Shown one piece after another: positions 4,095 through 30,818 of a DNA stretch of 32,424 nucleotides. The stretch is from Caryophanales bacterium (GTDB taxonomy: Bacteria; Bacillota; Bacilli; Paenibacillales; CANHCR01). The stretch lies in the NCBI GenBank assembly GCA_947459205.1, contig CANHCR010000028.1, forward strand, positions 1 to 32,424. The letters are read 5' to 3'. The translations under genes were made by a program, and so were the position numbers. The notes below the pieces were generated by a model. It was given only the letters and a program-made list of their open reading frames with translations, made no database searches and was not told where the DNA came from. The number at the start of each line of letters is the position of its first letter. Within the stretch, counting starts at the first letter, position 1.

Positions 4095-4099
4095 AATCA

Positions 4100-4107
4100 C
4101 ACCTCCT
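4100..4107 (-). promoter_or_regulatory. Shine-Dalgarno deciding the formyltransferase start
   Basis: AGGAGGTG lies inside the longer reading frame that begins at 4127 and is ideally spaced for GTG 4094. This favours the shorter protein. Confidence 0.7.
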
Positions 4108-4133
4108 ATCAACAAAATCAAAAACATGTACTA

Positions 4134-4239: not shown

Positions 4240-5979
4240 TTACCGCAATGCCGGACCGATATTATCAACGGTATACGCATCAGAGATAATCTCTAAGTTT
4301 TTATTACCAGTGGTATCCTTAATCGTATTGGCAAGGATCTTAATACGGTAATATTTATTTCTAGCTGGCATCGATGGTGTCTTATCTTTGAAATTGAATT
4401 TGATGATGGACTTACCTTTCGCACCATTTGTTGTTACGTCAGCTGCAATCGGTGCAAATGTTGCTGTTTCATCATCAGGACTGTCACTTACGCTGAAGAA
4501 TACATTGAGACGGAAGGCGTTAAGGACCTCTTTTTTGTCAACTTCCAAAGCATTGAACACTTCTTCATTCAACACAACTTCTAGCACTTTGTTTTTCCCT
4601 TTAGCAGGTAAACTTGCAGATACAAGTTTCGGCCCTTCTTCATCGGCTACTAGAATCGATGTAATCGCGCCATCATTGGTATTACCGAAGATGTCTCTCA
4701 CCGTATCTTCTGTAAGTTGAATGCGGTTCTGATCTCCTGTTAACGGTGTAGCCAAAATGACAGTAAGCGTACTACCCGACACTACTACAACGTCTAACTC
4801 CGTTAATTTGTTATAAGTCGGAATTGGGCTGTTTGCATTTTTCGAAAGATAAATCGTGTTTCTTAGTGCTGGCAAAGCAACTTTTCTTGTGCCAGGAAGG
4901 TTGTTTTTAATTTCCTCATTGAATTGAATCGAAATCGTTTTGTTGTCTTTGCCAAGTGTAACCTTCTTCAAAACAGGTCCCACTTTATCCAACTCAATAA
5001 TTGGGGTTTCGATCGACTCATTTAGATTTTTACTTCTGTCAACTAACGCACCAGCATCAATTTGAATTCGAGTATCAGAAGTTGTAATCGATTTACTAAA
5101 ATTAATGACTAGATTACGTTTGTCGAAACTGATTCGATCTTTCTCACCAAGCGCCGAATACGTTGGAGTAGCACTACTTGCATTAAACGAGATTCTAACT
5201 TTCGACCTGAAGTCTAACTCTTTTTCAGGATTTTTCGGTGCATTGGAACCGTATGCGATAATTTCATTGAATGTTAACACAAGTCTTTTGTTCCTTTTAT
5301 CAACAAATCTCGCTTCGATATATTTCGGACCAGCAACGTCGATTAAGAGTGGAGATGTGAATTGATCGTTAGGGAACAAGTTTCCACCTTGGTCTCGCAA
5401 GATACCACCCAAAATTTTAAGTCGATTGTACTGAGTGGTAATCGGGCTTCTTACTTGTAGAACGATTTTGTTACCTCTAATGTTCAGCGTATCTTCTGCT
5501 GTCAAGAATGTATCGTATTCTGGATTAACCACATTCGCTTCGTTTGTGATGTGAATCGCATTTTTGAGCGCTTCTTTGTTCATCGATGCTAATAGGTTCT
5601 CTTTGAAGAAAATCGTGATCTGATCAATTGCCACACCTTTAATCAGTTTGCCTTTTTCAAGGATTGCATTCGCTTGCGTCACTTGAATTTGGAATGCTTG
5701 CTCTAAATACAATCCTGAAGGATCCGTGACACGGACACGTACAAATTGAACTGGTTTGTCGTAGCTTAATGAAACGTTTGTTTTCAAATGTTTGCCATCA
5801 ATGATGTAGTTCGAATTGTCCTCACTACCCTCACCGACTACCAGTGAATATTTCAGAGTTTCTTCGGCATCGTCCGGGTCGCTGGCTGCAAATTCACCAA
5901 TCAGGAAGCCCAACCAAACTTTCTCATCCACACGATTATTACTTAGTGTCAAGGTTGTAGGCGGCTCGTTGCCATTTAC
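4240..5979 (-). other. C-terminal block shared with the VWA protein (cadherin + 4 Ig-like)
   Basis: This segment encodes the last, divergent cadherin unit (starting VNGNEPPTTLTLSN) and four SbsA-like Ig domains. It aligns collinearly with 100-1788. Matching signatures are SLVVGEGS-DNSN, HITNEAN/TITNEAN with PEY, YNR-KI, DV-GPK and the terminal VD--GP-LR. The two blocks are paralogous and may be the functional tail of this protein family. Confidence 0.8.
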
Positions 5980-11900: not shown

Positions 11901-14900
11901 CTGCATTGTTCTCAGCAATGCTCGTTGCGCTTAGCGTAATCGCTGTTGGTGCTTCGTTTACGTTTGTTACGCTAATCGTAAATGTTTGTTCAAATGTCAA
12001 ACCGCCCTGGTCCGTCGTGCGAACACGAATCGCGTAACTGTTTTTCGTTTCAAAGTTCAATGAACTATTCACAGTCAATGTGTTTCCGGTGATAGTAAAC
12101 GACGCGTTGTCCGTTGAACCGGTGCCAGTCACAAGAATGTAAGTATGCGTATTTGCAGCATCTTGATCGGTTGTAGTAAATGTACCGATCGTCGCATTCG
12201 CGGCATTATTTTCCGCAATCGTTGTATTACTTAATGCTAATGCTGATGGTGCTTCATTCAAATCATTCACTGAAATGGTAAATGCTTTTTCGAATGTTAA
12301 ACTTCCTTGATCTGTCGTACGCACACGAATCGAGTAAGTTGATTTAGTCTCGAAGTTAAACGCAATCGCTGCATTCAAACTTGAACTTACAATCGCGAAC
12401 GAACCATTATCTGTAGAACCTGTCCCTGTTACAAGCGTGTAAGTGAACGTATTGCCTGCGTCCGGATCTGTTGTGGTAATCGTTCCGATGGTAGCACCTA
12501 CTGCATTATTTTCATTGATGGCAGTTGGCGCGATATTCAAATCGGTTGGATTTTCATTGACGTTGACAACGGTAATCGTAAATGTTTGTTCAAAAGTCAA
12601 ACCGCCCTGGTCTGTCGTGCGAATACGAATCGCGTAACTGTTCTTCGTTTCAAAATCCAAACTACTGTTCACAGTCAAGGTGCTACCTGTAACCGTAAAG
12701 GATGCATTATCGGTCGAACCTGTTCCCGTTACTAAACTATAAGTAAAGGTACTGCCTGCATCTTGGTCAGTCGTAGTCAACGTGCCAACTGTTGCACCCG
12801 CTGCATTATTTTCATTGATTGAAGTAGCGCTTAAAGTAAGGGCTGTAGGTGCTTCATTCACGTTCGTCACATTAATCGTGAACGTCTGCTCTAAGAACAA
12901 GCCACCTTGATCCGTGGTGCGAACACGAATTGAGAAACTATTTTTCGTCTCAAAGTTATAAGATGCTGCGGCATTCAAAGAATTGCCAGTAATCGTGAAA
13001 CTTGTATTATCGGTCGAACCTGTTCCCGTAACGAGTGTGTACGTGAACGTATTCGATGCATCCGGATCAGTTGAACTGAGTGTGCCGATGTTCGCTCCAG
13101 TCAAATTATTTTCGGCAATCGTGTTGTTGCTTAAAGTAAGCGTTAAAGGCGTCTCATTCACATCATTTACTGTAATCGTAAATGTCCGTTCAAAGGACAA
13201 TCCGCCTTGATCAGTAGAGCGAACGCGAATCGAATAACTGTTCTTCGTTTCAAAGTTAAATACTGCGCCTGCGTTCAAGTTCGCACCGACAATTGAGAAC
13301 GTTGCGTTGTCTGCCGAACCATCGCCAGCGACAAGCGTGTACGTAAACGTATTGCCTGCATCAGGGTCAGTAGTCGTGAAAGAACCGACTGTTGCACCAC
13401 TTGCGTTGTTTTCGTTAATCGCTGTGTTGCTGAGCGCAATCGCCGTCGGTGTTTCGTTCACGTTCGTCACAGTAATCGTGATCGCTTGTTCGAACGTCAA
13501 TCCACCTTGGTCAGTTGAACGAACACGAATCAAATAACTGTTCTTCGTTTCGAAGTTCAATGAACTGTTCACAGTGAGCGTGTTACCGGTGATTGTGAAC
13601 GAAGCATTGTCGGTCGATCCTGTACCAGTTACCAAAGTGTAAGTATGCGTATTACCGGCATCTTGATCGGTCGATGTGAATGTGCCCACCGTCGCATTCG
13701 CCGCATTATTCTCAGCAATCGTAGTCGAACTTAAAGTGATCGCAGTCGGCGCTTCATTCAAATCGTTGACAGTAATATTGAACGTTCTATCAAACGTAAG
13801 ACCACCTTGATCGGTCGTACGAAGACGTATCGAGTAACTCGATTTCGCCTCAAAGTTCAGCGAACTGTTCACGTTCAGATTACTACCCGCCACAGTGAAA
13901 CTCGCATTGTCGGTCGAACCTGTTCCTGTAACTAACGAATACGTGAAAGTATTTCCCGCATCTGGATCAACTGATGACAAAGTACCGATCGTTGCGCCAG
14001 CCGTATTGTTTTCATTAATCGTAGTAGCACTTAGGTTGAGGTTCGTAGGTGCCTCATTCACGTTCGTCACCGTTATGGTGAATGTTGTCTCTGTTGTTAA
14101 CCCGCCCTGGTCGGTTGAGCGCACACGAATCGAGTAACTGTTCTTGCTCTCAAAGTCAAGTGAACTATTTACAGTCACCGTGCTGCCGGTAATGGTAAAG
14201 GATGCGTTGTCTGTCGATCCCGTACCGGTTACGAGCGTATAGGTAAATGTACTGCCAGCATCCGGATCAGTAGTGGTCAAAGTGCCCACCGTTGCACCTG
14301 CAGTATTATTTTCGGCAATCGACGTAGTGTTCATGGCAATCGCTGTCGGTGATTCATTCACGTTCGTTACCGTGATGGTAAACGCTTTGTCAAATGTCAA
14401 CCCGCCTTGATCTGTCGTCCGAACGCGAATCGAGTAACTCGTCTTTGTTTCAAAATTCAACGAGTTATTCACAGAAAGCGTCGCGCCAGTGATGGAGAAT
14501 GAAGCATTATCCGTTGACCCCGTACCTGTTACAAATGAGTACGTATGCGTATTGCCCGGGTCGCTATCGGTCGTCGTGAATGTCCCGACCGTTGCATTCG
14601 CTGCGTTGTTCTCGGCAATCGAAGTTGAACTCAACGAAATATCCGTCGGAGCCTCATTCGAGTTGAGAACGCTAACTGTTAATGCCTGCTCAAAAAACAA
14701 TCCACCTTGATCCGTTGAGCGAACACGAATGGAACGTGTAGATGACGCCTCGAAGTCAAGTGACGCCGTCGCAAGCAAGGAACTTCCAGTTACCGAGAAA
14801 AGTGAATTATCGGTAGAGCCAGTACCTGTGACAAGCGTGTAAGTAAACGTATTACTCGCATCTGGATCGACTGTAGACAAAGTGCCGATCGTACTATTTA

Positions 14901-16536: not shown

Positions 16537-16542
16537 ACCATA

Positions 16543-16549
16543 CACCTCT
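16543..16549 (-). promoter_or_regulatory. Shine-Dalgarno deciding the giant cadherin start
   Basis: AGAGGTG is 6 nt before ATG 16536. The alternative GTG start at 16545 lies inside this motif, so the ATG is preferred. Confidence 0.65.
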
Positions 16550-16618
16550 AATTACATGATTTTTGCGATGAATATACAATGTTGAGTAAGTATATTTAAA
16601 CTTGCAGTAGCAAATGGT

Positions 16619-16729
16619 TCATAGTCGATACACACTTAATAATGAAGGGATTAAGAAGATATGACGATTACTCACACGAGAGTTTGCAAACGATGAATAG
16701 TTCGTAACTTGAAACTGCAACAATTTCAT
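16619..16729 (-). CDS. 36-aa small ORF in the leader of the giant cadherin gene
   Basis: ATG at 16729 is preceded by GAGGTGG (16734-16740, spacing 4-5 nt) and an extended -10 promoter 46 bases upstream. The frame ends with TGA at 16619, 82 nt before the cadherin start. The N-terminus MKLLQFQVTNYSSFANS resembles the opening of AAA/OLD-type ATPases (M-K-x-x-x-F-x-VTNF-S-x-x-DS), but no Walker A or further homology follows. It may be a leader peptide, an independent small protein, or the surviving tip of a lost ATPase gene. The similarity is short and judged by eye. Confidence 0.4.
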   Translation of the reverse strand: MKLLQFQVTNYSSFANSRVSNRHIFLIPSLLSVYRL

Positions 16730-16774
16730 AAAACCACCTCCATTATGCGTGCATGATAAAATACAATCTATTAC

Positions 16775-16783
16775 ATTATATCA
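16775..16783 (-). promoter_or_regulatory. Extended -10 promoter of the small ORF / giant cadherin unit
   Basis: TGATATAAT on the minus strand matches TGnTATAAT perfectly. The -35 region is weak. The predicted start near 16768 gives a leader of about 230 nt before ATG 16536 that contains the 36-codon ORF. The stretch 16546-16937 holds only this promoter, the small ORF and the upstream terminator. Confidence 0.55.
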
Positions 16784-16834
16784 TTAGTTTGTATAGACGA
16801 AAAGTCATTCTGGATGTTTTTTCATATTTTTGTA

Positions 16835-16868
16835 AAACACCTCTCGATTCGACAATCGAGAGGTGTTT
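16835..16868 (-). terminator. Intrinsic terminator of the DUF6273/CTLD/InlB-repeat gene
   Basis: A perfect 15-bp stem (AAACACCTCTCGATT 16835-16849, AATCGAGAGGTGTTT 16854-16868) with loop CGAC, about 70 bases past the stop at 16938. On the minus strand the stem runs into a short T-run (TTTT). Confidence 0.85.
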
Positions 16869-16937
16869 GCGTTTTGATTTTGTTATCGGCTAAACGGTTA
16901 TTTTTTTTTACTTCTTTTTTATTTTAAAATTTCAATT

Positions 16938-19900
16938 TTAAGGAAACGTCGTCACACTGATCGTTGTGCTGTTCGTGAAGTTTTTCGCCGCGTCGAGCGA
17001 GCGCACATACACACTGTACGTCGTACCGGCCGTCAACCCACTGAAATTGTATGACGTCGTTGTACCGCTGACGGTCGCAAGGTACGCGCCGTTGCGATAA
17101 ATGTTGTAATTCGCCACCGCCACATTGTCAGTCGCCGCTGTCCAACTGATGCGGAAGCCGGTTTTGCTGAGATTGCTGCTCGTGACGTTGGTCGGTGCGG
17201 TTGGTGCGGTTGTATCGCCCGCAGCCAGTGTTGTTACGCTGATCGTCGTGCTGTTCTCAAAGTTTTTCGCAGCGTCGAGTGCGCGCACATACACGCTATA
17301 GGTGGTCGATGCCGTCAAACCGCTGAATGTATACGTCGTCGTTGTGCCGCTGACGGTAGCCAGGTACGAACCGTTGCGGTAAATGTTATAACCCGTTACA
17401 CCAACGTTGTCTGTCGCCGCCGTCCAATTGATGCGGAAACCGGTTGTCGTAACGCTACTACTCACAACATTCGTCGGCGCAGTTGGCTTCACCGTGTCTG
17501 CAAGATTCGCCGTAGTCGTCACCGAAAGGGCCGTGCTGTTGGTAAAGTTTTGCTCCGCGTCGAGTGCGCGTACGACGATGCTGTACGTCGTGCTCGGCGT
17601 CAAGCCACTGAAGTTATACCTCGTCAGCGGCGCATTGACCGTCGCCACATACGTACCGCCGCGATACAAGTTGTAAGCCGTCACACCGACGTTGTCCGTC
17701 GCAGCCGTCCAACTGATGCTAAAGCCGCTACCACTTATGTTGCTGCTCACCACATTGGTCGGTGCACTCGGTGCGATCGGGTCCGGTGTAAAGGTGGTCG
17801 CAATCGGCACCGCTGTCGATCTCGCCGATCGGTTGCCCGCCAAGTCGAACGCTTCAATTCTGATTTGGTGCGTTTCATTGAACGGCAAGTTGCTGAAATT
17901 GAACGATCTCACACCGTTTTTCAAGGTGTTCACATACGAACCGTTGCGATAAATATGGTAGCCGTCAACCCCGACATTATCCGTCGAAGCGTTCCAACTA
18001 ACCGTGAATCCGCGTTTCGTGATGTTGCTCGCCGCCACACCCGTAGGCACCGTCGGTGCAGAACCGTCTGTCGTGGTGAACGTCAACGGCGTCGTCAGCA
18101 GTGAGCGATTGCGTGCTGCATCGACTGCGAGCACCGTCAATGTGTAACTCGTCAACTGCGTCAAGCCCGTCAACTCTGTACTTGCTGTTGGCACCGTCTT
18201 GATATAGACACCATTTTGATAGACGTTGTAACCGGTCACACCGACATTGTCCGTCGACGGCGTCCAGGTGAACAACGCTTTATTTGCATAAATGAACGTT
18301 GCTGTCACGTTTTGCGGTGTCGTCGGTGGCAACACATCCGGCGGCGTCAGAGTCTTCACAGCGAGCGGCGCCGAACGTGCCGATCGGTTACGCGAACTGA
18401 GTCGTTTCTCTGCGTCAAACGCTTGCACGGTCATGGAGAACGTCGTGGTGTGCGCACGCCCTGTGACCGTATACTGTGTACCGGTAATCGAACCTAAGAA
18501 GTTTCCGTTGATGAATACGTTGTAACCGGCAACCCCAACATTGTCAGTCGACGGATTCCAACTGAGGACGAAACTGTTTGTCGTAATTTGTGAAGCCACG
18601 AGGCCCGTCGGCACGGACGGCGCTTCGGTATCGTAGGTGATGACCAAAATCGCATTGCTCGGCGCCGATTTGTTGCCTGTACCATCGACGGTGACGACGG
18701 TGAAGTTATTTTCTTCCTCCGGAATGAGGTTGGTCGCAGTATACGAAGTTTCGGTTGTCGTCGCGATCAAGGAACCATTGTTAAAAATTTCGTACGACAC
18801 ATTGCCGGAGTTATCACTGCCCGCACCCCACGTCAATTTGACCGTCGTTTCGGTTTTTTGGCTGTCGCCGAGCGCGGTCGGTGCCGTCGGGATGATTTCA
18901 TCGACATCGTTGATGGAGATAGAAATCACTTTTTCGAAGGTCGCGCCTTTGCTGTCGGTGACGCGCACACGCGCGGTGTATGATGACTTCGTCTCAAAGT
19001 CGAACGCAGCATTGACTTTCAGTGCATTGCCGTCAATCGTAAAACTGTTGTTATCCGCATCGCCGTCGCCACTAACGAGCGTGTAGGTGAACGTCTCATC
19101 GGCATCCGTATCGTTCGTCGTCAATGTAGCCACCGTCGATCCGATTGCGCTGTTTTCATTGACGGTGTTTGTGCTCACCGTTATCTCGGAAGGCGTGGTG
19201 TTTGTTTGTGATGCCGGCGTGAAAACTGATAACTCCGAAGTCGCCTCGGATACCGAGTTGTCTTTCATTTTTGCCTTGACCGTAAATTTATGCAGTGTGA
19301 GAGGCGCCAAACCGGTCACTTGGAACGACTGTGCCGGCGGATTGCCGTCGCTGCCACTGACCGTGCCGATAAGCACGCCGTTGCGATAAATCTCATAAGC
19401 GTCGACGTTTGTATCCTCACCGAGCAACGACCATTGCAAAGTGGCACTAGTCGCTGTCAGTTTGCTGCTGTCTTGTTGCAAACCGCATATTGTCGGCGCA
19501 GGCAAGAAGTAGCCGCTACCGTCTCCGCCCGAACCACGGTACATGACAAACGGATTTTGCTCCGTGCCAGTGCCGTTCAAGACGAAACTCATCTTTTGCT
19601 TATCAAGTTGCATCATCGGGCGGACGCCGATATATCCACCATTCGAAGCACCAGCCGAGTTCAAGTAATTGTTTGAACCCTGTTGACGATAAATACTCAT
19701 TAGACCAATACCCTCAGGATAGTTGGATGGAGTCTGCGACCAATAGTCCCAGTTATTAGTGGTGCTGAAATTGTTCAAGTTCATATAATATTGTGCATTC
19801 ATATCACTTTTCGCAATACAAACAAGTTCCGTTGTCGGTTTCGCAGGAATATAAGAAGCTCCGCCGACCGTGCTGTTTTTCCCTACAAATTCCACCAATT

Positions 19901-22900
19901 GAGGAATCGTCGGCACAATGACTGAATCTGTTACCGTTTTGTAAAATCCGGTTTGAGACGTGCTCAGTGTACTTGCCTGCGTCCAAGCCGAATTTACCCA
20001 AGCAGATGGGAAAAATCCGGTACCACCGTCTTTCTTTGCTTGATCCTTCGTATGAATCTCTGATTGATACGTGTACGGCTTAATCATCGCTCGTTCGGTT
20101 GCTGTGAAATTTCCATCAGCGAGAAATCCTTTCTCGCTCGCATAATTCAAGAGTGGAGTCCCAGAAAAAATCGGATTGTTTTGAATCCAGTCAATCGTAT
20201 TGGCGCCACTATTCGACTGACTACTGTTCAGCCATTGGCGGATATTGGAGTCCAAATAATAACTACTACCCGAAAAAGATCGAGCGTTGTCAGGGCTATG
20301 ATAAGAACCACTTGCATCGAACGGTTTCAAACTGAGAATGCGGTCAGACAACAGCATCGGATTGCCGGCACTGTCTTTGCCGACAACGCGCCATACGATT
20401 GGAGCACTGTAATAAGTTCCAAACTTCACATATTGTCCAATTTGTAATTCCGAGAACACGTAAACAGTGATGATTTTTACAAATGTGAATCCAGCACTAT
20501 CCGTTACACGAATACGCAGACTGTATGAGGTCTCCGTGCGCGAATCAAATGCGGTGGCGGTGCGCACTTCTCCATTTTGAATCGTAAAGAAGTGATTATC
20601 TTCATCGCCATCACCGCTAATTAGAGAAAAAGTAAACGTATCGTTCTCGTTTATATCAGTGGCGCTAAGTGTCCCCACAAGAGATCCAATTGAACTATTG
20701 CGCGCAATCTCATTTTTGCTAATGAATACATTCGACGGCGGTTGCGGGTCGACATTCCACTTTCCATATAGCGTGATGTTACCGCTCGGTGCCGTGCTGA
20801 AATCGAATCCATCTGTCAGACCACTATTCGTAAACCAGCCAGCAAATAAGTAGCCGGCACGCGTCAAAGCAGCAGGTTCACTTATCGTCTCGCCAGGTGC
20901 AAACGTGACGGATGGCACGCTGCCACCGCCGTTGCTGACGAAACTTGCCGTATATTGAAGCCATTTTGCATAGAGTGTGACATCGCCCGTCACTGGCGTT
21001 GCGAACGAATACGCTTGCGTGAGCGCACTGTCGCTGAACCAGCCCCCGAAGCCGTAACCGCTACGTGTTGGTGCGGACGGTTCGGTGACCGTCGCATTCG
21101 GCGGTTGGGATTGACTAGCGACTGCAGAGCCGCCATTGCTATTGAACGTCACCGTATAAGCAATCCACTTGGCGTACAATGTGATGTCGGATTTGACCGC
21201 GATATTGAAAGCAAATGGTTTCGTAAGCGCCACGTCGGTGTACCAGCCGACAAAGCTGTGATTATTTTTCGTCGGTGGCGTCGGTTCACTCGCTGTACTA
21301 CCAAGCGCAACGGACTGTGAAGCGACTGCGGAACCACCGTTGCTGTCAAACGTCACGGTGTATGCGACCCATTTCGCATAGAGAGTGAGATTGGACGTGA
21401 CCGCTGCTCTGAAATCGTACGGGGTTGTCAAGGCGCTATCCATGAACCAGCCGGCGAAGCCGAAGCCTGCTTTGGTAGGGTTGGTCGGCATTGGAAGAGC
21501 CAACGAACTAGGCTGTTGTACCGCCGCAATCGTGTTGCCGTCAGCAGTGTCGAATGTGACCGTGTGGTAGCGGTACAGCGCTACCGAGGCCGTTAGCGAT
21601 TTGGCTGAACCGCTATATTCTACATAATAATTATCCGGATTGTTGTTGTTTGTCCCCGTACATGTGGAAAGATTAAGCCATCCGCATCCATACGTGTACG
21701 TGCTCGTGATGTTTTCCCTAGCATCATTCCAACCAGAAGTACCGAATAAAACAAAATGCTCGCCACCCGAATTGTTCGGTTCTCCATCAGCCCAACTCGT
21801 CACAAATCCTGTGACAGTTTCTACATCGGGACTATTGCCATTACTGAACAGTCCCCGCTCCGCCGAAGGGCCAGTCACCCAGTGAAACCGTCCTTCCGCT
21901 GCGGGTTGGTTCGCAAACCCAGTCGTCGTATTGTTCCCTAACGAGCTATTGACGGTCGCGAACTCGTCGCTGCCGCCGAGCCAACCAGAGACGTTAAACA
22001 TATTTTTCAAAAATGCATCTTCGGCGGTCGTTTGGAGTGTTGCCAAATAACCGTTCAACACACCCGCGGTCTGACGGTTTTCAGCAGCTGGACGTGCATT
22101 ATTCCAACGTTGCTTCGAATTCACGACTTCATAATAATTCGTTTGACCGTTCGGCAACTGCAGAGGCAATGCCGCACCCAACGTGTAACGAATCGTGCGC
22201 GGCGCATTGTTAGTCGAATTCGTCGTGAACCGAACCGTGCGTAACAACGTTTGCCAATTTGCCGGCGTCGTCGAACCGTTGAAGCGCAACAAACCAGTCG
22301 TTGTATTAAAAGACGTCACCGTCACGCCGGACGGCAAACTGCCTGTGTACGATAAACTGTCTTTTCCGGCATCAAAATTGCTACTGATGAGTACCGTCGC
22401 GCCGTTGATGGAACTGCTCGACGTAATCGGCGAGACGTTCGTCGGAATGACTAACCCGGAATCAATCGCCGTACCTGCCGCACTGATCGACTGCTGTCCG
22501 ACACTCGCCTTGATATAGATGTCAAGCGAACTCACGCTTAGCACAAACGTTTTTTCGAAACTGGCGTTCGTGCCATCGGTCACCCGCACACGGACGCTGT
22601 ATGAACTTTTACCCGAGATATTCGGAGTATCATGGAGCAGCAACGATGAACCCGAAATGCGGAACGATTGGTTGTCCGTGTCACCCGCACCCTGAACTAA
22701 GGCATAGGAGAATGAATCCTCAGTCGTTAAATCACTGGCGGATAATTGTCCGACCGTTGCCCCGTGTCCGGCATTCCCAAAAATGGTCGTGTTACTTAGT
22801 GAAATATTCGTTGGACGTTCTGAATTGACCGTGATGGAGATCGCTTTCTCGAACGATAATCCACCACCATCTGTCGCTTTCAGGCGAATTGTCAGTCCGT

Positions 22901-24116
22901 TTTTGACCGATGCATCAAGCGGTTCTTGCAAATAGAGCGCGTTATTGGAAATAGTGAATAATGAATTGTCCGTATCTCCTTGCCCGACTGCAAAGGAGTA
23001 TGTTGCGCTATCGCCAACCTTCGGATCGCCGGAACTCGAGATATCCGCGGCTTTCGCGCCGACAGCAAGTGTGTCAGAAACGGTTTGACTGCTCAGACTA
23101 ATATCAGTCGGTGGACTGTCCACGAACGCTACCGTGTGCGGATTCGTGCACGTACCAGTTCCACCGGATATGCTAGTGACGGTAGGGTTCAACTGAAGTG
23201 CGGGACGAATGCCGACGTGTATACTGCTAGCGTAAAAATCAACAATACTCGTTCCCCATTGATCCACTACGCGAACACTGGCTCCCTCATTCATCACATA
23301 TAGAGGATGACTAGTGTTGGACAAGGTAGCGGGAGTGTTGAGATAATATGGAGTACGAGTACTAGCTGTCGTAGAAATTCCAGGATGCCAACCGCGGTCA
23401 ATCACATATTCTTTCAACTGCTTGAGAGATAATAGAAAAACGTTGTCTATCACCGTTTGGTAATAGGCGGAATCATAATTTTGCATGAAATTAACATTTA
23501 AAAATTGTGTGTAGATATGTCCTTCCGAGCCTCCGTCGGCTCTCCATGAGTCTATCGTACCAATGATAACATTATGCGTCAACGGCTTAATCATTGCGCG
23601 CTCTGTGGCGGTAAAATTGCCGTTTGCAAGAAAGCCTTTTTCCGTGCTGTAATTCGTCCCGTAATCGTACTGTGTCCAAGGGTCGTTTTGAATCCAATCA
23701 ATAAGATCTGATCCGGCATTGGACTGGGCACTGTTTAACCATTGACGAATGTTTGAATTCGGGTAATAATTGCTACCATTGTTTGAACGTGCTGTGGGAC
23801 CGCCATTCGCTGCCAGATGAAAGGATCCTTTCATATCAAACGGCTTATTACCGATTGACTGCTCAGCAAACAACATTGGCGTGCCCGTACCATCTACATT
23901 GATGACTTTCCATACAATGGGACCCCTCGTCGTATAGGAGCCGAAGACGACACAATCGCCAACCTCCAATGAAGCACCTGCTCCCCCGCTCGACGCTTGC
24001 GCAACGTTTGTCGTCACCCCGTCTTCAGTGAACGGAATCGCAGGAACGACGCCGCTAAAGAGCAACAAACATGCAAGAATGACGGACCATACTGATTTAG
24101 CTTGATGAAATGACAT
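16938..24116 (-). CDS. Giant secreted DUF6273 / CTLD / InlB-repeat / FN3 protein
   Basis: 2392 aa, ATG with GGAGGG 7 nt upstream. A signal peptide (about 1-42, through NVAQA) is followed by a DUF6273-like domain (about 50-330, containing SNIRQWLNS and GNFTATERAMIKP) and two cadherins (330-527). An Ig-like domain comes next with a CTLD inserted in it (CTLD about 659-832; GEPNN and WND motifs), then four InlB B-repeats (about 847-1123; GGWF/TLYAKW) and a cadherin (1125-1220). A second DUF6273 (1224-1525) repeats RQWLNSSQSN and GNFTATERAMIKP. The rest is FN3 (1538-1635), cadherin (1639-1737) and seven FN3 (1740-2392), ending SVTTFP. No anchor is seen. The FN3 tail aligns with that of the upstream CTLD gene, and both genes share an upstream element. 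EPN plus WND predicts calcium-dependent mannose-type sugar binding. Overall it is probably an adhesin; the DUF6273 function is unknown. Confidence 0.9.
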   Translation of the reverse strand: MSFHQAKSVWSVILACLLLFSGVVPAIPFTEDGVTTNVAQASSGGAGASLEVGDCVVFGSYTTRGPIVWKVINVDGTGTPMLFAEQSIGNKPFDMKGSFHLAANGGPTARSNNGSNYYPNSNIRQWLNSAQSNAGSDLIDWIQNDPWTQYDYGTNYSTEKGFLANGNFTATERAMIKPLTHNVIIGTIDSWRADGGSEGHIYTQFLNVNFMQNYDSAYYQTVIDNVFLLSLKQLKEYVIDRGWHPGISTTASTRTPYYLNTPATLSNTSHPLYVMNEGASVRVVDQWGTSIVDFYASSIHVGIRPALQLNPTVTSISGGTGTCTNPHTVAFVDSPPTDISLSSQTVSDTLAVGAKAADISSSGDPKVGDSATYSFAVGQGDTDNSLFTISNNALYLQEPLDASVKNGLTIRLKATDGGGLSFEKAISITVNSERPTNISLSNTTIFGNAGHGATVGQLSASDLTTEDSFSYALVQGAGDTDNQSFRISGSSLLLHDTPNISGKSSYSVRVRVTDGTNASFEKTFVLSVSSLDIYIKASVGQQSISAAGTAIDSGLVIPTNVSPITSSSSINGATVLISSNFDAGKDSLSYTGSLPSGVTVTSFNTTTGLLRFNGSTTPANWQTLLRTVRFTTNSTNNAPRTIRYTLGAALPLQLPNGQTNYYEVVNSKQRWNNARPAAENRQTAGVLNGYLATLQTTAEDAFLKNMFNVSGWLGGSDEFATVNSSLGNNTTTGFANQPAAEGRFHWVTGPSAERGLFSNGNSPDVETVTGFVTSWADGEPNNSGGEHFVLFGTSGWNDARENITSTYTYGCGWLNLSTCTGTNNNNPDNYYVEYSGSAKSLTASVALYRYHTVTFDTADGNTIAAVQQPSSLALPMPTNPTKAGFGFAGWFMDSALTTPYDFRAAVTSNLTLYAKWVAYTVTFDSNGGSAVASQSVALGSTASEPTPPTKNNHSFVGWYTDVALTKPFAFNIAVKSDITLYAKWIAYTVTFNSNGGSAVASQSQPPNATVTEPSAPTRSGYGFGGWFSDSALTQAYSFATPVTGDVTLYAKWLQYTASFVSNGGGSVPSVTFAPGETISEPAALTRAGYLFAGWFTNSGLTDGFDFSTAPSGNITLYGKWNVDPQPPSNVFISKNEIARNSSIGSLVGTLSATDINENDTFTFSLISGDGDEDNHFFTIQNGEVRTATAFDSRTETSYSLRIRVTDSAGFTFVKIITVYVFSELQIGQYVKFGTYYSAPIVWRVVGKDSAGNPMLLSDRILSLKPFDASGSYHSPDNARSFSGSSYYLDSNIRQWLNSSQSNSGANTIDWIQNNPIFSGTPLLNYASEKGFLADGNFTATERAMIKPYTYQSEIHTKDQAKKDGGTGFFPSAWVNSAWTQASTLSTSQTGFYKTVTDSVIVPTIPQLVEFVGKNSTVGGASYIPAKPTTELVCIAKSDMNAQYYMNLNNFSTTNNWDYWSQTPSNYPEGIGLMSIYRQQGSNNYLNSAGASNGGYIGVRPMMQLDKQKMSFVLNGTGTEQNPFVMYRGSGGDGSGYFLPAPTICGLQQDSSKLTATSATLQWSLLGEDTNVDAYEIYRNGVLIGTVSGSDGNPPAQSFQVTGLAPLTLHKFTVKAKMKDNSVSEATSELSVFTPASQTNTTPSEITVSTNTVNENSAIGSTVATLTTNDTDADETFTYTLVSGDGDADNNSFTIDGNALKVNAAFDFETKSSYTARVRVTDSKGATFEKVISISINDVDEIIPTAPTALGDSQKTETTVKLTWGAGSDNSGNVSYEIFNNGSLIATTTETSYTATNLIPEEENNFTVVTVDGTGNKSAPSNAILVITYDTEAPSVPTGLVASQITTNSFVLSWNPSTDNVGVAGYNVFINGNFLGSITGTQYTVTGRAHTTTFSMTVQAFDAEKRLSSRNRSARSAPLAVKTLTPPDVLPPTTPQNVTATFIYANKALFTWTPSTDNVGVTGYNVYQNGVYIKTVPTASTELTGLTQLTSYTLTVLAVDAARNRSLLTTPLTFTTTDGSAPTVPTGVAASNITKRGFTVSWNASTDNVGVDGYHIYRNGSYVNTLKNGVRSFNFSNLPFNETHQIRIEAFDLAGNRSARSTAVPIATTFTPDPIAPSAPTNVVSSNISGSGFSISWTAATDNVGVTAYNLYRGGTYVATVNAPLTRYNFSGLTPSTTYSIVVRALDAEQNFTNSTALSVTTTANLADTVKPTAPTNVVSSSVTTTGFRINWTAATDNVGVTGYNIYRNGSYLATVSGTTTTYTFSGLTASTTYSVYVRALDAAKNFENSTTISVTTLAAGDTTAPTAPTNVTSSNLSKTGFRISWTAATDNVAVANYNIYRNGAYLATVSGTTTSYNFSGLTAGTTYSVYVRSLDAAKNFTNSTTISVTTFP
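20745..21575 (-). repeat. Four InlB B-repeat (Listeria-Bacteroides) units
   Basis: Four units of roughly 68-70 residues share YTVTFDSNGGSAV, EP-PT, G-GFGGWF-D and TLYAKW. Such repeats occur in surface proteins of Gram-positive and gut bacteria and have a ubiquitin-like beta-grasp fold. Confidence 0.85.
21620..22140 (-). other. CTLD of the DUF6273 protein (EPN, WND)
   Basis: Encodes NYYEVVNSKQRWNNAR through YYVEYSG, with GYLATL, GEPNNSGGEH and GWND. It is inserted between the Ig-like strands RTIRYTLG and SLTASVALYR. A cysteine-containing loop (CGWLNLSTC) lies after WND. Confidence 0.75.
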
Positions 24117-24293: not shown

Positions 24294-27200
24294 TTACGGC
24301 AGCGTCGTCACCGTCACCGCATTGCTCGCTGCGGACAAATTGCGCTCCGCATCCACTGCGCGCACGGTGAACGTGTGTTCCGTGTTCGCCGTCAAATTAC
24401 GTGCATTGAAGAACGTCGACAAGGCGCTCGCTGTGCCGAAGTACGCACCGTTGCGGTAGATGTTGTACGCCGTCACTGCGACATTATCTGTCGAAGCCGT
24501 CCAACTGATGCGCACGCTCGTTCTTGTAAGGTTGCTACTCGTCACATTGACCGGTGCAGTCGGTGCGACCGCATCCAACACTGGCGTCGTGCTAACAGAG
24601 ATTGCGTCAGTCAAAGTAGACAGATTGCTCGCCGCGTCAATCGCACGCACCGCAATTTGATGTGTTTCGTTCAATGCCAAGCCTGCGAATGCGAACGACG
24701 TCAAGCCGTTGCGCACAGTCGCGACCTGTACTCCATTACGCAATACTTGGTAACCTGTCACACCGACATTATCCGTCGAAGCCGTCCAACTCACTGTGAA
24801 ACCAGTTCTTGTAATCGCGCTTGCTGTAAGGTTCGTCGGCACTGTTGGTGCCACACCTTCCATCGTTGTGATCGTAAATGGTGCAGACAAGGTCGAGCGG
24901 TTTTTCGCCGCATCAATCGCCTGTAGACGTACTGAGTATGAAGTCAGTGGCGTCAAGCCCGTCAATTCCGTACGATTGGCAGAGACTGTTTTTATTAATA
25001 CGCCATCGACATACACGTTGTAACCAGTAACGCCCACATTGTCTGTAGAAGCCACCCAACTGAAGAATGCGGAATCTTTTGTGATTAGCGATGTGCTGAT
25101 TGCGCCTGGTACCACAGGTGCTTGCGAGTCTGCGGTGCGCAGAATGACCGGCACGCTTTGCGCCGAACGATTTTTGGAAGCATCGAACGCCATCACCGTG
25201 ATCGAATATGGTGTATTTTGTTTCAAACCTGTGATTGTAAGACGATTTCCTTTGATAGTGCCAACAAAATCACGATTGCGGTAGACATTGTAACCTGTCA
25301 CACCGACGTTGTCTGTGGAAGCATCCCACTGAATACGTAAGCTGGTCGGCGTTGATTCAATCGCCGTAATGTTGACCGGAATCGATGGGGCGACGACGTC
25401 CGGCGTCGTAAATGTCACGGAATTACTGTTCGCCGATCTGTTGCCTGCGGCATCGATAGCGACAATCGTCAAGGTGTGCGACACACCCGATGCGATACCT
25501 GTCACATTGTAAGGTGATTCTGTCGCCGAAGCAATTAACGTAGAGCCACTATACACTTCATAACCGGAAACTCCTACGTTGTCCGTCGAAGGTGTCCAAG
25601 TCAACGTTACACCTGTGCCCGTAACATTTGAGAACGTTAAATCTGCCGGAGCAGTCGGTGCCGAATCATCGCCATCTGTGACCGTTATCGCTATTGATTG
25701 TTCAAACGTCAACCCACCACCATCTGTCACACGTACACGAACCGAATAACTTGATTTCGTTTCAAAATCGAAACTTACATTTGCGCGCAAGTTTGTACCG
25801 CTGATATTGAATGCTCCATTGTCCGCATCACCATCACCGCTCACCAGTGTATACGTCGCCGTATCACTTGGATCAACATCCGTTCTGTTAAGTGTACCGA
25901 CAACCGCGTTCACATCTGCATTCTCTGCAATCGAACTTGCACTTAGCGTGATATCACTAGGCGCATCATTCGCATTTGTAACAGTAATCACAAACGACTG
26001 TTCGTACGTTAACCCTCCGCCATCCGTCGCGCGGATACGGACGCTGTAACTTGATTTCGTTTCAAAATCGAAACTGGCATTAGCACGCAGGCTTGTCCCG
26101 CCAATATTGAAACTGCCGTTATCCGCATCACCGTCACCGCCTACCAATGTGAACGTCGCCGTGTCTCCTGTATCAGTATCTGTTGCACTTAATGAGCCAA
26201 CCATTGCGTTCGAACCAGCATTTTCAGCGATTGTGCTGGATGTAAGCGAAAACCCAGTCAAAGCTTCATTGACGTTCGTCACAGAAATAGTAAGCACTTT
26301 TTCAAATGTTCGGTTCGTGCTATCCGTCACTCGGATACGAATCGAGTACGAGGATTTCGCTTCGAAGTCAAACGAAGCATTTGCACGCAGACTCGTTCCG
26401 CTAATACTGAAAGAACCATTGTCTGTCGAACCTGCGCCACTTACCAAAGTGAACGATGCTGTATCGCCCGCGTCCGCATCCGTCGCACTCAATGTACCAA
26501 CTGAGACATCCGCGCCAGCATTTTCAGCAATGGTGTTGCCGGACAATGAAATGTTAGATGGCGTATCCTCTTGTGCATTGATCGTCACTATGAGATTAGC
26601 AGCTGTCGGCGTATCACCGCCATAGCCGATTCCGCCATATTCAACGATGTAGCCTGCGATTGTACCAGCTGTCGGCGAATTCGGCAAATCATTCCATTTC
26701 CCACTACCATTTGCCACAAACTGTACATAATCTTCATTGTTGGAGTTGTTCGGTTCGCCAGAGTTCCAGTTGGAGTAGGTAGCCGTTTGCCCCCCTTCCG
26801 GTCCATCGATATAACGCCAAGTATTTTCTGTTACTTGGTCTGTCAACCCTTGCCATCCTGATAAAACACCAATATTTGAAGTTATAAAGGCATTTTCAGC
26901 AGCCGAAGAAATATTCGCCAAATAGCCATTCAAACCATAAAGTGATTTTCCAAGTGCGGCCGCCCTTGCGTCCGACCAAGAAATGTCTTGCGCACTCACA
27001 TACTGATAATAATGACCGTTGGCCGGATAGAAGAAGAATCCTGTTTTATTGATGCGATACGATTGTGGCGTGCGTCCATCATGCACCGTCAAACTCAATG
27101 AATCACTACCATTAAAATTCGCATTCGGCGTATAGACAAGCGTCGCCAACGAACTGTTCAGGTTCGCAACCGAACCGACCAATTGCAAACTTCCTGTGTT

Positions 27201-30200
27201 TGCACCCGTAACCGCCAAACCTGTACTCACCGTAACCTTTAACGTACCGTTGCTTGCACCGACATTCACCGTAAGCGACGTACTATCTTGATCTTGAACG
27301 GTAATTCCGCTCAATGTCACATTGCCATCTTCATTAACGGTTGACGTATCCGGCCCGAGAATATACGGCCAGTACATCATCGATACGGTGAGTGGAGTTT
27401 CCGTAGTACCTCCATTACCGTCCGTTACACGCACACGAATCGAGTAACTGCTGACTGAGCCGTCAAGATTGTTTATCGAACGAAGCGTTGTCCCGTCGAT
27501 TGTAAATAATGCATTGTCCGTTGAACCCGTACCGCTCACCAAACTGTAGGACAGGGAAGATGACGCCGTTTCCACGTCCGTCGAGGAAAGTGAACCGACA
27601 ACAGCATTCGCGCCACTATTCGTTGCTAAGCTGCTTGGATTTAACTGTGCAGCTGTCGGCAAGTCATTCACCGAACTGAGTGTAATCGCGATTGTTTCTG
27701 TCGGCAAATTACCAGTCGTGCCATACTCGACCGCAGCGGATACGGTGGAACTACAACCTGCATCGTTCCATGTTTTTAGCGCATCGTCACGCATTGCTGC
27801 ACAGTCTTCATTATTGACATTGTTTGGTTCACCACTGGTCCAATTAGTGTAAGAACCCGCAGTATCTGCTTCAGGTCCGTCTGCCCAACGCCATTGCCCT
27901 TCCGTTGTGATATCGTTATAACCAATCCAGAATACCCAATTGGATGGCGTAAGTCCGCCGACAAATTGTTGCTCAGCCACCGATGTAATGTTCGCCAAAT
28001 AACCGTTGACACCACTCACCGAGCGCGCCAACGCCGTTGAACGAGCTTGTGTCCATGTACCTCCGGATATAATTTCATAATAATGATTTGTAATCGGTGT
28101 ATATTTAATATTACTGTCATTACGTTTGTACGTCGTGCGTGAAGCCACGCCACGCTCATCCTCGACAGACAGACTGACACTCGCCGCCCCAAAATAGTTT
28201 TGCGTACCGCTGAACACGAGTGTACCGATTGAGGTACTGACATTCGCCGGTGTACCCGTCAATGTCAAGGTCGCCGTATTCGCACCGCCAATGGAGACGC
28301 CGCTCGAGTTCGTCACATTCAGCGTGCCGTTCGTCGCTGTCACTGTCGCGGTAACCGTGCTACTATCCGGGTCTTGTACCGTCACACCGGACAATGAAAG
28401 ATTCGTATCTTCAGTGCCGGAAAATGTAACAGCACCCATTACCACTGGATTCGATGCAACTTTGATGGTATATACATTTTCTACTGTTCCGCCATTCGGA
28501 TCTGTTCCGCGAACACGAATCGAGTAGTTGTTACCTTCATATCCATTCAAATTAGACGCCGTGCGCAATTCATTGCCGACAATCGAAAATTTAGAATTGT
28601 CACTCGAGCCGGTGCCCGCTACTAAACTGAAGGTCACGTTGCTGCCACTCTCCACATCAGAACCGGATAAAGTCGCAACCGTCGCGCCACTGCCGGCAAG
28701 ATGATCGACACTTGTATCCGATAGCGTGAACGTCGGATTGTCATTGACACTGTTTACAGTAATCGCAATGGTTTCTGTCGGTAAACTGTTGGTCGTGCCG
28801 TACTCTACCAAATAGAAATACCCGCTCGCACAGTTGTTATCATTCCATTTTTTATCCGATTGATTACTAGTGTGTATACAATCCTCATTATTATTTGAAT
28901 TATTCGGTTCGCCGGGATTCCAGTTCGAGTAGGATACCGTTTGACCCGCTTCCGGACCGTCTGCCCAACTGAATGTGTTTTCCGTCGTGATATCGTTCAA
29001 ACCAAACCAAACTTCCCAATTTGATGGAAGGATTGACTGAATAAATGATTGCTCCTCAGCCGAGGTGATATTCGCCAAGTAACCGCTCAAGCCACTCACC
29101 GAGCGAACTTTCGCATCTGTACGAGCAGCTGACCAATTCAAAGTCGTAGAAACGGCTTCATAATAGTGATTTGTGGCCGGCGAGTATTTAATCGCGCTAT
29201 CGTTGCGTTTGTACGTCGCACGCGACACTTCACCGCGCTCATCTTCTACCGAAAGACTGACACTTGCAACACCGAAGTAATGCTCATTCCCGCGGAAAAC
29301 TAATGTTCCGATGGCTGTGCTAACATTTGCCGGCGAACCCGTCAATGTTAAGGTTGACGTATCCGCACCGCCAACCGTCACGCCTGTCGTAGTCGTCACG
29401 TTCAATGTACCGTTCGTCGCCGTCACTGTCGCCGTTACAATATCACTTTCCAGATCTTGCACCGAGATGCCGGTCAAAGATAAATTCGTGTCTTCATTGA
29501 CTGTGAGTGATGTTACCGGACCTGTAATGAACGGATTGGTCAACACTTTGATGACATACGTGTAATCTTTCGAACCGCCGTCCGAAGCAACCGCGCGAAG
29601 GCGAATCTGATAGTTGTTCGCAACGTAGCCGCTCGCCGCAAAATTCGTGCGCAATTCGTTGCCGACAATCGAGAATTTCGAATTGTCTGTCGAACCAGTC
29701 CCAGACGTAAAACTATACGTTACGTTACTGCCACTCTCAATATCCGAAGCAGTAAACGTGCCGACCGTTGTGCCACTCGGCGCGAACTGTTCAACGCTCG
29801 TACTCGACAACGTCAATAACGGTTCGTCGTTCGCTTGATTGACCGTCAACGTAATGTTAGTGTCAAGTGGCGCCGTTTGCGTTTCATACTCTACTAGGTA
29901 TTTATAAGAATTGTGGCATTGTACGTCATTCCAAAAACCGCCGCTTCCAAACGTTACACAAGATTCGTAGCGGAGATGCAAATCAATCCATTGAGTCGAG
30001 TTATCCGGTTGGCCAGGACCCCATCTAATATACCCTTGGTAAGAGTTGTTGGTACCATTATTCTCCGGTCCATGGTGCACATACCATGTGCCTAACTCGT
30101 AACCATCTTGCAGAGGACCTCCATTTTTCAACATCTGTGTCGCGCCAAACAAAGCCGTGTCTGCAAATGAATTCGCCAAGAATGTATTTTCCTCGCCACC

Positions 30201-30818
30201 TGAAATGTTCGCGGGATAACCTACAACACCGGCATAGGTACGCTGCATGCTTCCCCAGTTGAAAATGACGTCATAAGCTTTTCTAGCCGACTGCACCAAC
30301 TCATACGTTTTGCCCGTCGCCGGATTGTATGCATATTGCGTGTCCGTGCGTTTGTACTGGACTGGCGAAGTCCTGCCGTCCGTCACCGTCAAACTGATTG
30401 TTTCCGTACCAAATTGCTCAAGTCCCGATTGGAATCGTAATGTAGCAATCGCAGCATTCAAATTTTCTACTGAACCGCTAAATTGCAAACTACTCGTACC
30501 TGCACCTGTCACCGACAAACCGGTACTGGCACCAAGCGAGAGCGAGCCGCGCGTCGACGTGATATTGACCGTCAAATTGGTCGAATCAGGATCGCCGACT
30601 TTAATCCCCGTCAAGCCGATTTGTTGGTTCTCGTTACCCGTGTAGGTAACCGGACCCAAAATCCACGGTTTGGCTGGGCCGTTGCTTATCGACGCCTCAG
30701 CAGCACCAAACTCGAAATTCCATGGTTCCAGCGAGCTGAGCGCCGGCGCGTAGCCGCTGAGTAACAGGGCTGTAGCTAACAAGACGGTTAGCCACCTTTT
30801 ACTGAAAGTAGACAACAT
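24294..30818 (-). CDS. Giant secreted protein with four C-type lectin-like domains, cadherins and FN3
   Basis: 2174 aa, ATG with AGGAG 8 nt upstream. A signal peptide (about the first 43 residues) precedes four modules. Each is an Ig/cadherin-like domain with a CTLD inserted before its last strand; in modules 1-3 a complete cadherin follows. CTLDs are at about 164-310, 544-676, 904-1038 and 1262-1400. CTLD1 has the sugar-site motif QPD; CTLDs 2-4 have EPN; all four keep WND. CTLDs 1-3 have the Cys pair flanking WND, and CTLD4 lacks it. Three cadherins (1412-1712) and five FN3 (1713-2174) follow, ending AVTVTTLP with no anchor motif. The FN3 tail parallels that of the downstream DUF6273/CTLD gene. 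Established CTLD chemistry predicts calcium-dependent binding of both galactose-type and mannose-type sugars. The likely role is glycan adhesion. Confidence 0.9.
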   Translation of the reverse strand: MLSTFSKRWLTVLLATALLLSGYAPALSSLEPWNFEFGAAEASISNGPAKPWILGPVTYTGNENQQIGLTGIKVGDPDSTNLTVNITSTRGSLSLGASTGLSVTGAGTSSLQFSGSVENLNAAIATLRFQSGLEQFGTETISLTVTDGRTSPVQYKRTDTQYAYNPATGKTYELVQSARKAYDVIFNWGSMQRTYAGVVGYPANISGGEENTFLANSFADTALFGATQMLKNGGPLQDGYELGTWYVHHGPENNGTNNSYQGYIRWGPGQPDNSTQWIDLHLRYESCVTFGSGGFWNDVQCHNSYKYLVEYETQTAPLDTNITLTVNQANDEPLLTLSSTSVEQFAPSGTTVGTFTASDIESGSNVTYSFTSGTGSTDNSKFSIVGNELRTNFAASGYVANNYQIRLRAVASDGGSKDYTYVIKVLTNPFITGPVTSLTVNEDTNLSLTGISVQDLESDIVTATVTATNGTLNVTTTTGVTVGGADTSTLTLTGSPANVSTAIGTLVFRGNEHYFGVASVSLSVEDERGEVSRATYKRNDSAIKYSPATNHYYEAVSTTLNWSAARTDAKVRSVSGLSGYLANITSAEEQSFIQSILPSNWEVWFGLNDITTENTFSWADGPEAGQTVSYSNWNPGEPNNSNNNEDCIHTSNQSDKKWNDNNCASGYFYLVEYGTTNSLPTETIAITVNSVNDNPTFTLSDTSVDHLAGSGATVATLSGSDVESGSNVTFSLVAGTGSSDNSKFSIVGNELRTASNLNGYEGNNYSIRVRGTDPNGGTVENVYTIKVASNPVVMGAVTFSGTEDTNLSLSGVTVQDPDSSTVTATVTATNGTLNVTNSSGVSIGGANTATLTLTGTPANVSTSIGTLVFSGTQNYFGAASVSLSVEDERGVASRTTYKRNDSNIKYTPITNHYYEIISGGTWTQARSTALARSVSGVNGYLANITSVAEQQFVGGLTPSNWVFWIGYNDITTEGQWRWADGPEADTAGSYTNWTSGEPNNVNNEDCAAMRDDALKTWNDAGCSSTVSAAVEYGTTGNLPTETIAITLSSVNDLPTAAQLNPSSLATNSGANAVVGSLSSTDVETASSSLSYSLVSGTGSTDNALFTIDGTTLRSINNLDGSVSSYSIRVRVTDGNGGTTETPLTVSMMYWPYILGPDTSTVNEDGNVTLSGITVQDQDSTSLTVNVGASNGTLKVTVSTGLAVTGANTGSLQLVGSVANLNSSLATLVYTPNANFNGSDSLSLTVHDGRTPQSYRINKTGFFFYPANGHYYQYVSAQDISWSDARAAALGKSLYGLNGYLANISSAAENAFITSNIGVLSGWQGLTDQVTENTWRYIDGPEGGQTATYSNWNSGEPNNSNNEDYVQFVANGSGKWNDLPNSPTAGTIAGYIVEYGGIGYGGDTPTAANLIVTINAQEDTPSNISLSGNTIAENAGADVSVGTLSATDADAGDTASFTLVSGAGSTDNGSFSISGTSLRANASFDFEAKSSYSIRIRVTDSTNRTFEKVLTISVTNVNEALTGFSLTSSTIAENAGSNAMVGSLSATDTDTGDTATFTLVGGDGDADNGSFNIGGTSLRANASFDFETKSSYSVRIRATDGGGLTYEQSFVITVTNANDAPSDITLSASSIAENADVNAVVGTLNRTDVDPSDTATYTLVSGDGDADNGAFNISGTNLRANVSFDFETKSSYSVRVRVTDGGGLTFEQSIAITVTDGDDSAPTAPADLTFSNVTGTGVTLTWTPSTDNVGVSGYEVYSGSTLIASATESPYNVTGIASGVSHTLTIVAIDAAGNRSANSNSVTFTTPDVVAPSIPVNITAIESTPTSLRIQWDASTDNVGVTGYNVYRNRDFVGTIKGNRLTITGLKQNTPYSITVMAFDASKNRSAQSVPVILRTADSQAPVVPGAISTSLITKDSAFFSWVASTDNVGVTGYNVYVDGVLIKTVSANRTELTGLTPLTSYSVRLQAIDAAKNRSTLSAPFTITTMEGVAPTVPTNLTASAITRTGFTVSWTASTDNVGVTGYQVLRNGVQVATVRNGLTSFAFAGLALNETHQIAVRAIDAASNLSTLTDAISVSTTPVLDAVAPTAPVNVTSSNLTRTSVRISWTASTDNVAVTAYNIYRNGAYFGTASALSTFFNARNLTANTEHTFTVRAVDAERNLSAASNAVTVTTLP
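26620..27030 (-). other. CTLD 4 coding segment (EPN, WND, no Cys pair)
   Basis: Encodes GHYYQYVSAQ through AGYIVEYGG. The core motifs GYLANI, GEPNN and KWND are present. The two cysteines that flank WND in the other three domains are absent, so this copy would lack that disulfide. Confidence 0.75.
27710..28110 (-). other. CTLD 3 coding segment (EPN, WND)
   Basis: Encodes NHYYEIISGG through AAVEYGT with GYLANIT, GEPNN, EDC and TWNDAGC. It sits between the Ig strands SVSLSVEDERG and TETIAITLSSVND. Confidence 0.75.
28795..29190 (-). other. CTLD 2 coding segment (EPN, WND)
   Basis: Encodes NHYYEAVSTT through YLVEYGT with GYLANIT, GEPNN, EDC and KWNDNNC. It has the same scaffold position as CTLD 3 and is its closest relative by eye. 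Confidence 0.75.
29885..30330 (-). other. CTLD 1 coding segment (QPD, WND)
   Basis: Encodes GKTYELVQSA through YLVEYET. The sugar-site tripeptide is QPD (in WGPGQPDNS) instead of EPN. Cysteines flank FWND (YESC...VQCH). The domain is longer than the other three. Confidence 0.75.

Follow-up and report, generated by a model that had tools for sequence, protein, structure and literature searches.

Two adjoining genes of a Paenibacillales bacterium probably encode secreted, fiber-like surface proteins in which C-type lectin domains (CTLDs) are held in split immunoglobulin (Ig)-like mounts, as side-mounted lectins that attach to glycans. Both lie on the minus strand of the window, by which we mean the whole 32,424-nucleotide stretch of DNA analyzed: gene A is the open reading frame (ORF) 24294-30818 (2174 aa), and gene B, next to it, is ORF 16938-24116 (2392 aa). 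Gene A is laid out as four units, each an Ig-like domain split by a CTLD and followed by a cadherin, and then further cadherins and an fn3 array. Its split modules, M1 to M4, occupy aa 50-332, 427-695, 789-1054, and 1150-1420 and recur every ~361-377 residues, and gene B contributes the fifth split domain of the window, B1 (Table 1). An earlier note, made from the letters of the DNA alone, had described four CTLD-split modules in gene A and one in its neighbor; both ORFs and all five copies were recovered, and the flanks that it quoted, SVSLSVEDERG-[CTLD]-TETIAITVNSVND and RTIRYTLG-[CTLD]-SLTASVALYR, match the translation exactly. Its count of five is correct for the window, and the total for the genome is 12. 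The N termini of both proteins are signal-peptide-like and stalk repeats are present; a Pfam search found no anchor domain in either gene, and we infer that the products are attached to the surface. Gene B also has DUF6273 domains (PF19789; aa 47-310 and 1227-1505), which are un-nested and in tandem with cadherins, and at locus L208 a DUF6273-like stretch stands immediately after a nested CTLD. Elsewhere in the window, a 4101-aa protein with 28 cadherin stretches is encoded on the same strand (4240-16545), and downstream, likewise oriented, are genes for a small protein that partially matches formyl transferase (3408-4127) and for a vWFA and fn3 protein (100-3324). Scans for promoters and terminators did not rise above chance, and PHROGs gave no match.

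Table 1. Predicted features of the split modules and stalks of genes A and B, with the basis of each assignment
Feature	Position	Strand	Basis
M1 scaffold first part, aa 50-154	30357..30671	(-)	Uninterrupted-domain profile 2-109 of 130 at aa 51-153
M1 inserted CTLD and linkers, aa 155-319, QPD...WND	29862..30356	(-)	Alignment with M2-M4; site
M1 returning last strand TNITLTVNQANDE	29823..29861	(-)	Graft gain weak, rank 202 of 2032
Cadherin-like spacer 1, aa 333-426	29541..29822	(-)	Divergent repeat, 58% identity to spacer 2
M2 scaffold first part, aa 427-535	29214..29540	(-)	Profile 2-105 of 130
M2 inserted CTLD, aa 536-680, EPN...E...WND	28779..29213	(-)	Lectin_C aa 577-665; own-genome match E 8.5e-18; site
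M2 returning last strand TETIAITVNSVNDNP	28734..28778	(-)	Graft rank 1 of 2030
Cadherin-like spacer 2, aa 696-788	28455..28733	(-)	Identities to other cadherin-like repeats
M3 scaffold first part, aa 789-896	28131..28454	(-)	Profile 2-109 of 130
M3 inserted CTLD, aa 897-1039, EPN...E...WND	27702..28130	(-)	Lectin_C E 8.1e-16; site
M3 returning last strand TETIAITLSSVNDLP	27657..27701	(-)	Graft rank 5 of 2031
Cadherin-like spacer 3, aa 1055-1149	27372..27656	(-)	Identities; complete beta domain in model
M4 scaffold first part, aa 1150-1253	27060..27371	(-)	Profile 2-104 of 130; AlphaFold2 strands 96-190 of model
M4 inserted CTLD, aa 1254-1405, EPN...E...WND, no cysteines	26604..27059	(-)	Lectin_C E 1.8e-9; model Z ~18
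M4 returning last strand AANLIVTINAQEDTP	26559..26603	(-)	Lone strand 353-358 of model; graft gain weak
Three more cadherin-like domains, aa 1421-1716	25671..26558	(-)	Pfam Cadherin, best stretch aa 1429-1513
C-terminal fn3 array, aa 1717-2174	24297..25670	(-)	Pfam fn3, 5 stretches
B1 scaffold first part, aa 528-649, B-type Ig-like	22170..22535	(-)	B-type profile; unsplit relatives L189, L020, L151
B1 inserted CTLD, aa 650-840, EPN...E...WND	21597..22169	(-)	Own-genome profile match 21687-22169 E 2.6e-51; model Z ~16
B1 returning last strand, aa 841-851, within SLTASVALYRYH	21564..21596	(-)	Strand 315-320, model's last element
Own-genome proteins with nested CTLDs	L205:97-3633; L207:1328-10894; L208:416-13681; L209:4998-10613, 11674-17061; L210:3110-9178		

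The inserted domains are recognizable as CTLDs at the levels of both family and predicted fold. Pfam Lectin_C (PF00059) matches M2, M3, and M4 above its curated cutoff (E 1.1e-40 for the whole gene A protein); the divergent copies M1 and B1 had no Lectin_C match in the Pfam search, and the CTLD of gene B is consequently unrecognized there. M1 can be aligned with M2-M4 as a full nested module, and B1 matches the profile of these CTLDs with an E value (2.6e-51) that has to be read with B1 itself being a row of that profile. When compared with solved structures, the CTLD profile fell nearest to the animal mannose receptor, DC-SIGN, and langerin families, with an IgY receptor of the mannose-receptor type as its best match (E 8e-26). 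The models discussed below likewise match solved CTLDs, at Z 18.6-17.4 for M4 and 16.0-14.8 for B1, and carbohydrate-binding animal CTLDs are among the matches at Z 15-18. With the B1 model as query, Foldseek returned no structure from BFVD or PDB that spans the whole nested module; the lists of structure matches were filled by CTLDs, so that a missing whole-module PDB match is no evidence in either direction.

Profile analysis gives good support to the conclusion that the CTLD interrupts an Ig-like domain that would resume after it. Joint alignment of nested and uninterrupted domains misplaced the last strand, and we therefore relied on profiles and a graft test. A search of public plasmid records with M4 recovered relatives with uninterrupted scaffolds (Azospirillum, Microvirga, Nostoc, and Variovorax), and the profile built from these begins to match M1-M4 at its position 2 and ends at positions 104-110 of 130, exactly where the CTLD starts; in the copy on contig C46 of the same genome it covers positions 4 to 109. 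Many domains of tandem relatives outside the profile (L167, L168, L169, and L171) reach positions 129-130. As the earlier note had supposed in speaking of a short turn, the same two strands are linked by ~10-20 residues in the uninterrupted relatives, for instance, LTVTVTDASNASTTTSRTIVVNNLNDAP (L186) and RTVSYTVNDSAANSNTVSSTINVAPVNDAP (L189). Some of the unsplit relatives occur inside proteins that also bear split copies: the B-type scaffold, that of gene B, is unsplit in L189 and both split and unsplit within one protein in L020 and L151. The graft test joined the pre-CTLD part to the segment that truly follows the CTLD and compared the score with those of all 24-residue windows of the protein. 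In M2 (rank 1 of 2030) the true segment came first and in M3 (rank 5 of 2031) close to first. M1 (rank 202 of 2032) and M4 (rank 144 of 2032) gave a less clear outcome, and in these two the last strands of neighboring cadherins score equally well. Truncated matches to Pfam Big_9 were dropped as a sign of nesting, as the uninterrupted domains of L187 and L188 are likewise truncated.

Structure prediction of the M4 and B1 regions, which the earlier note had proposed as a check, gave two AlphaFold2 models that each show a canonical CTLD and, after it, a single isolated strand. The first covers residues 1057-1515 of gene A (cadherin-M4-cadherin; 30-row alignment; pLDDT 87.0, pTM 0.77). Its strands 96-190 form the scaffold, the CTLD follows, and residues 353-358 (A 1409-1414) are the sole strand before the next cadherin, which starts at 365. 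The second covers B 528-851 (45-row alignment; pLDDT 80.5, pTM 0.80) and ends with a strand at 315-320, with no further domain in the construct. Strand assignment by DSSP requires pairing, and this last strand is likely to pair with the scaffold strand preceding the CTLD. The predicted secondary structure thus fits the profile result of a domain that stops at the CTLD with one strand following it, and the proposed placement of the CTLD between the last two Ig strands is borne out to that extent. The long cadherin matches of the gene A model have TM scores around 0.2 and prove nothing about the split; they were set aside.

On this basis, the CTLD would be the ligand-binding part, set into an Ig/cadherin-like domain between its final two strands so that this domain serves as a split mount, and the cadherin and fn3 repeats would form a rod. 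Because the N and C termini of the CTLD lie side by side, the rod would run on through the Ig domain, and the lectin would hang off sideways with its calcium/sugar site facing away; such a projection is a reasonable expectation from the geometry. Each gene A protein would then present four side-mounted lectins, and their most likely role would be attachment to glycans of cells, polysaccharides, or neighbors.

The arrangement is not confined to the window. A profile of the CTLDs matched 11 places in the 2.5-Mb genome; M1 brings the total to 12 CTLDs, distributed over 8 giant secreted proteins and all nested by inspection. The seven outside the window belong to six of these proteins, which are 1179-4422 aa long and encoded on contigs C46, C17, C32, C36, and C41. 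Repeats resembling the final fn3 repeat of gene B number at least 150 in the same genome and are spread over many ORFs, the longest of 4422 aa; several of these ORFs have ...SVTT(L/F)P as their C-terminal end and no known anchor. The earlier note had counted the five copies as so many insertions; they are better understood as duplicated units, since scaffold and CTLD identities within gene A run roughly parallel (69% and 59%, respectively, between M2 and M3) and CTLD groups are tied to scaffold type. On the parallel identities, we rejected an independent insertion for each gene A copy. A quick tree placed the genome's seven B-type copies in a single supported group (97), separate from those of the A-type, the type of gene A, a pattern that fits two nested units, each duplicated whole; the A-type copies are not clearly one group, support is low overall, and the M1 branch is very long.

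Lectin_C is rare among the relatives of this bacterium, being found in 2 of 198 genomes sampled from its order, its own included, and in 8 of 398 sampled from its phylum; the genome collection represents its family by its own genome only. Scanning 84,980 species genomes with the CTLD alignment returned at least 517 relatives. We scored the best 80 of these loci for scaffolds: of 83 CTLDs that could be tested, 79 come directly after a scaffold of one of three types (69 B-type, 8 C-type, and 2 A-type). Some of the profiles used for nesting were run on loci that had supplied their rows, so that the counts lean positive, and this one describes the CTLD subfamily, not all bacterial CTLDs, because the loci were picked by similarity to the query. 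One of the remaining four (L028) appears A-type by eye. The best-matching nested loci come from Bacteroidota (including Flavobacteriaceae), cyanobacteria, planctomycetes, and others. By these profile matches, members of this CTLD subfamily are usually nested across many phyla. Un-nested CTLDs were seen in three loci placed in Bacillota (L176, L178, and L180) and one cyanobacterium (L190), and nested ones in four further loci placed there (L005, L179, L181, and L182); the placement is the one suggested by domain content (SLH and Cu_amine_oxidN1). L181 has the order of gene B, with a nested CTLD and then Listeria-Bacteroides-type repeats, and in L179 the nested unit is part of a protein with SLH anchors. 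When run on L005 and L179, Pfam recognized the CTLD and left the B-type scaffold preceding it unmatched. Phage contigs have CTLDs in two settings, one an A-type-like scaffold and the other a beta-sandwich of a further type. In IMG/VR contigs (L108-L164, e.g., L121:3755-4534, L125, and L139), the CTLD is seemingly inserted as TFTYSGYIRNADGTGAVNVPVKLY-[CTLD]-VLHQTVYTNASGYYSFSQ; the phage beta-sandwich looks carboxypeptidase-regulatory-like by eye, and the CTLD is the sole part to which Pfam gives a name. Clostridioides plasmids (H6 and H8) also encode Ig-like proteins that have a CTLD match.

The residues of the primary calcium site bear on what these domains might bind. The motif EPN...E...WND is intact in M2, M3, M4, and B1, and M1 has QPD...WND, the galactose-type form. 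In animal lectins, as set out by Drickamer, EPN goes with mannose-type ligands and QPD with galactose-type ones. We suggest from these residues that the CTLDs of the window bind Ca2+ and sugar. Many CTLDs bind protein rather than sugar, and the nested domains might instead be mainly structural or spacing bulges or bind proteins, which we regard as unlikely. Such a role would accord with the lack of cysteines in the M4 CTLD and with the altered site residues in 7 of the 12 genome copies, all of them outside the window (WAD in C46, WVD in C17, WQD and FVD in C32, DPN with MQD in two C36 copies, and EPS with WND in C41); sugar binding is, accordingly, not required of all copies. It is hard to reconcile with the four of five window copies that keep EPN...E...WND and the fifth with QPD...WND, and with motif matches in the genome-collection loci that have EPN in 80 of 84 and WND in 82 of 84, residues that a spacer would not need. 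If the side-mounted lectins do bind glycans, this lineage may have built combs of them with differing specificities (EPN, QPD, or altered) from two separately duplicated units, 12 CTLDs in 8 proteins of a 2.5-Mb genome whose order otherwise nearly lacks CTLDs; we offer this only tentatively.

Alternatively, the proteins could be scaffolds for polysaccharide degradation rather than cell adhesins, with the lectins holding polymers. Repeats of the fn3 and cadherin types are also found in glycanase scaffolds, and NCBIfam records a resemblance to the fn3 part of the exoglucanase CbhB that is far under the cutoff, but Pfam and NCBIfam searches found no catalytic domain in gene A or B, and we think this improbable. 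It is very unlikely that the CTLD sits in simple tandem between a complete Ig domain and a cadherin, with the flanking strands in separate domains: the small score added by the post-CTLD segment in M1 and M4 and the indirect nature of the strand pairing would allow it, but by profile the domain ahead of the CTLD is missing its final strand in every gene A copy, a sole strand separates the CTLD from the next cadherin, nothing follows that strand in the B1 model, and the same break recurs across different scaffold types. Finally, a diversity-generating retroelement, an element whose usual targets have this fold, might use the CTLDs as its variable display proteins, but this seems most improbable, as the reverse transcriptase matches of the genome (G000:C10:55806-56400 and C71:2925-3188) are short or broken and no contig with a CTLD gene has one.

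Side-mounted lectins in split Ig-like domains thus remain our preferred reading of genes A and B, and they would carry the split-domain principle over from RTX adhesins to true C-type lectins and into another phylum. They further suggest that many large, poorly annotated proteins of Bacteroidota, cyanobacteria, and planctomycetes present lectins likewise, and serial copies with differing calcium-site residues in one protein offer a direct test of multispecific lectin fibers in bacteria. As a domain architecture, nesting proved less new than the earlier note had envisaged, given its frequency among the best-matching loci and the split Ig domains published for RTX adhesins. Graham et al. reportedly stated in 2024, as a general rule, that ligand-binding domains emerge from split Ig-like domains. 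The searched open literature, most subscription journals lying outside it, yielded no paper linking split domains or domain insertion with C-type lectins.

The proteins of Flavobacteriaceae, cyanobacteria, and planctomycetes share the CTLD subfamily and the insertion point, mostly with the B-type scaffold of gene B; in the stretches examined they mostly have one CTLD match per protein, whereas gene A has four on an A-type scaffold. Fibrillar-adhesin-like proteins (PMC8286594 and PMC9210967) are similar in combining stalk repeats with an adhesive domain; the word "nested" is absent from the main texts of both papers, the passages found in them describe no nesting, and PMC9210967 makes no mention of C-type lectins. 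Intimin has a terminal lectin-like D3 domain (PMC7718877), and intimin and invasin resemble genes A and B in having an Ig-like rod and a domain of the CTLD fold. In those inverse autotransporters, however, it is a single domain placed in tandem at the end, whereas the CTLDs here are internal, nested, repeated, and closest to animal calcium-dependent CTLDs, and Pfam found no intimin/invasin or autotransporter match in either gene.

A close parallel is with RTX adhesins, in which ligand-binding domains emerge from split Ig-like domains and a lectin-like module that binds fucosylated glycans projects from such a mount (PMC12077191 and PMC10865825). In FrhA of Vibrio cholerae, AhLap of Aeromonas hydrophila, and MpIBP of Marinomonas primoryensis, as we propose for genes A and B, a ligand-binding insert interrupts an Ig-like domain that continues beyond it; the adhesin inserts project from a rod of repeated beta-sandwich domains, as we would expect here. 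Their inserts are PA14, peptide-binding, carbohydrate-binding, RTX, or vWFA domains, whereas here the insert is a CTLD. RTX adhesins are Gram-negative proteins with a type I secretion signal and a ligand-binding region near the C terminus; gene A, in contrast, repeats its CTLD insert four times from the N terminus and ends in an fn3 array, not an RTX beta-roll, and Pfam found no RTX match in gene A or B. Set beside the RTX adhesins, these proteins follow the same principle with another inserted domain, in another phylum, and in serial copies.
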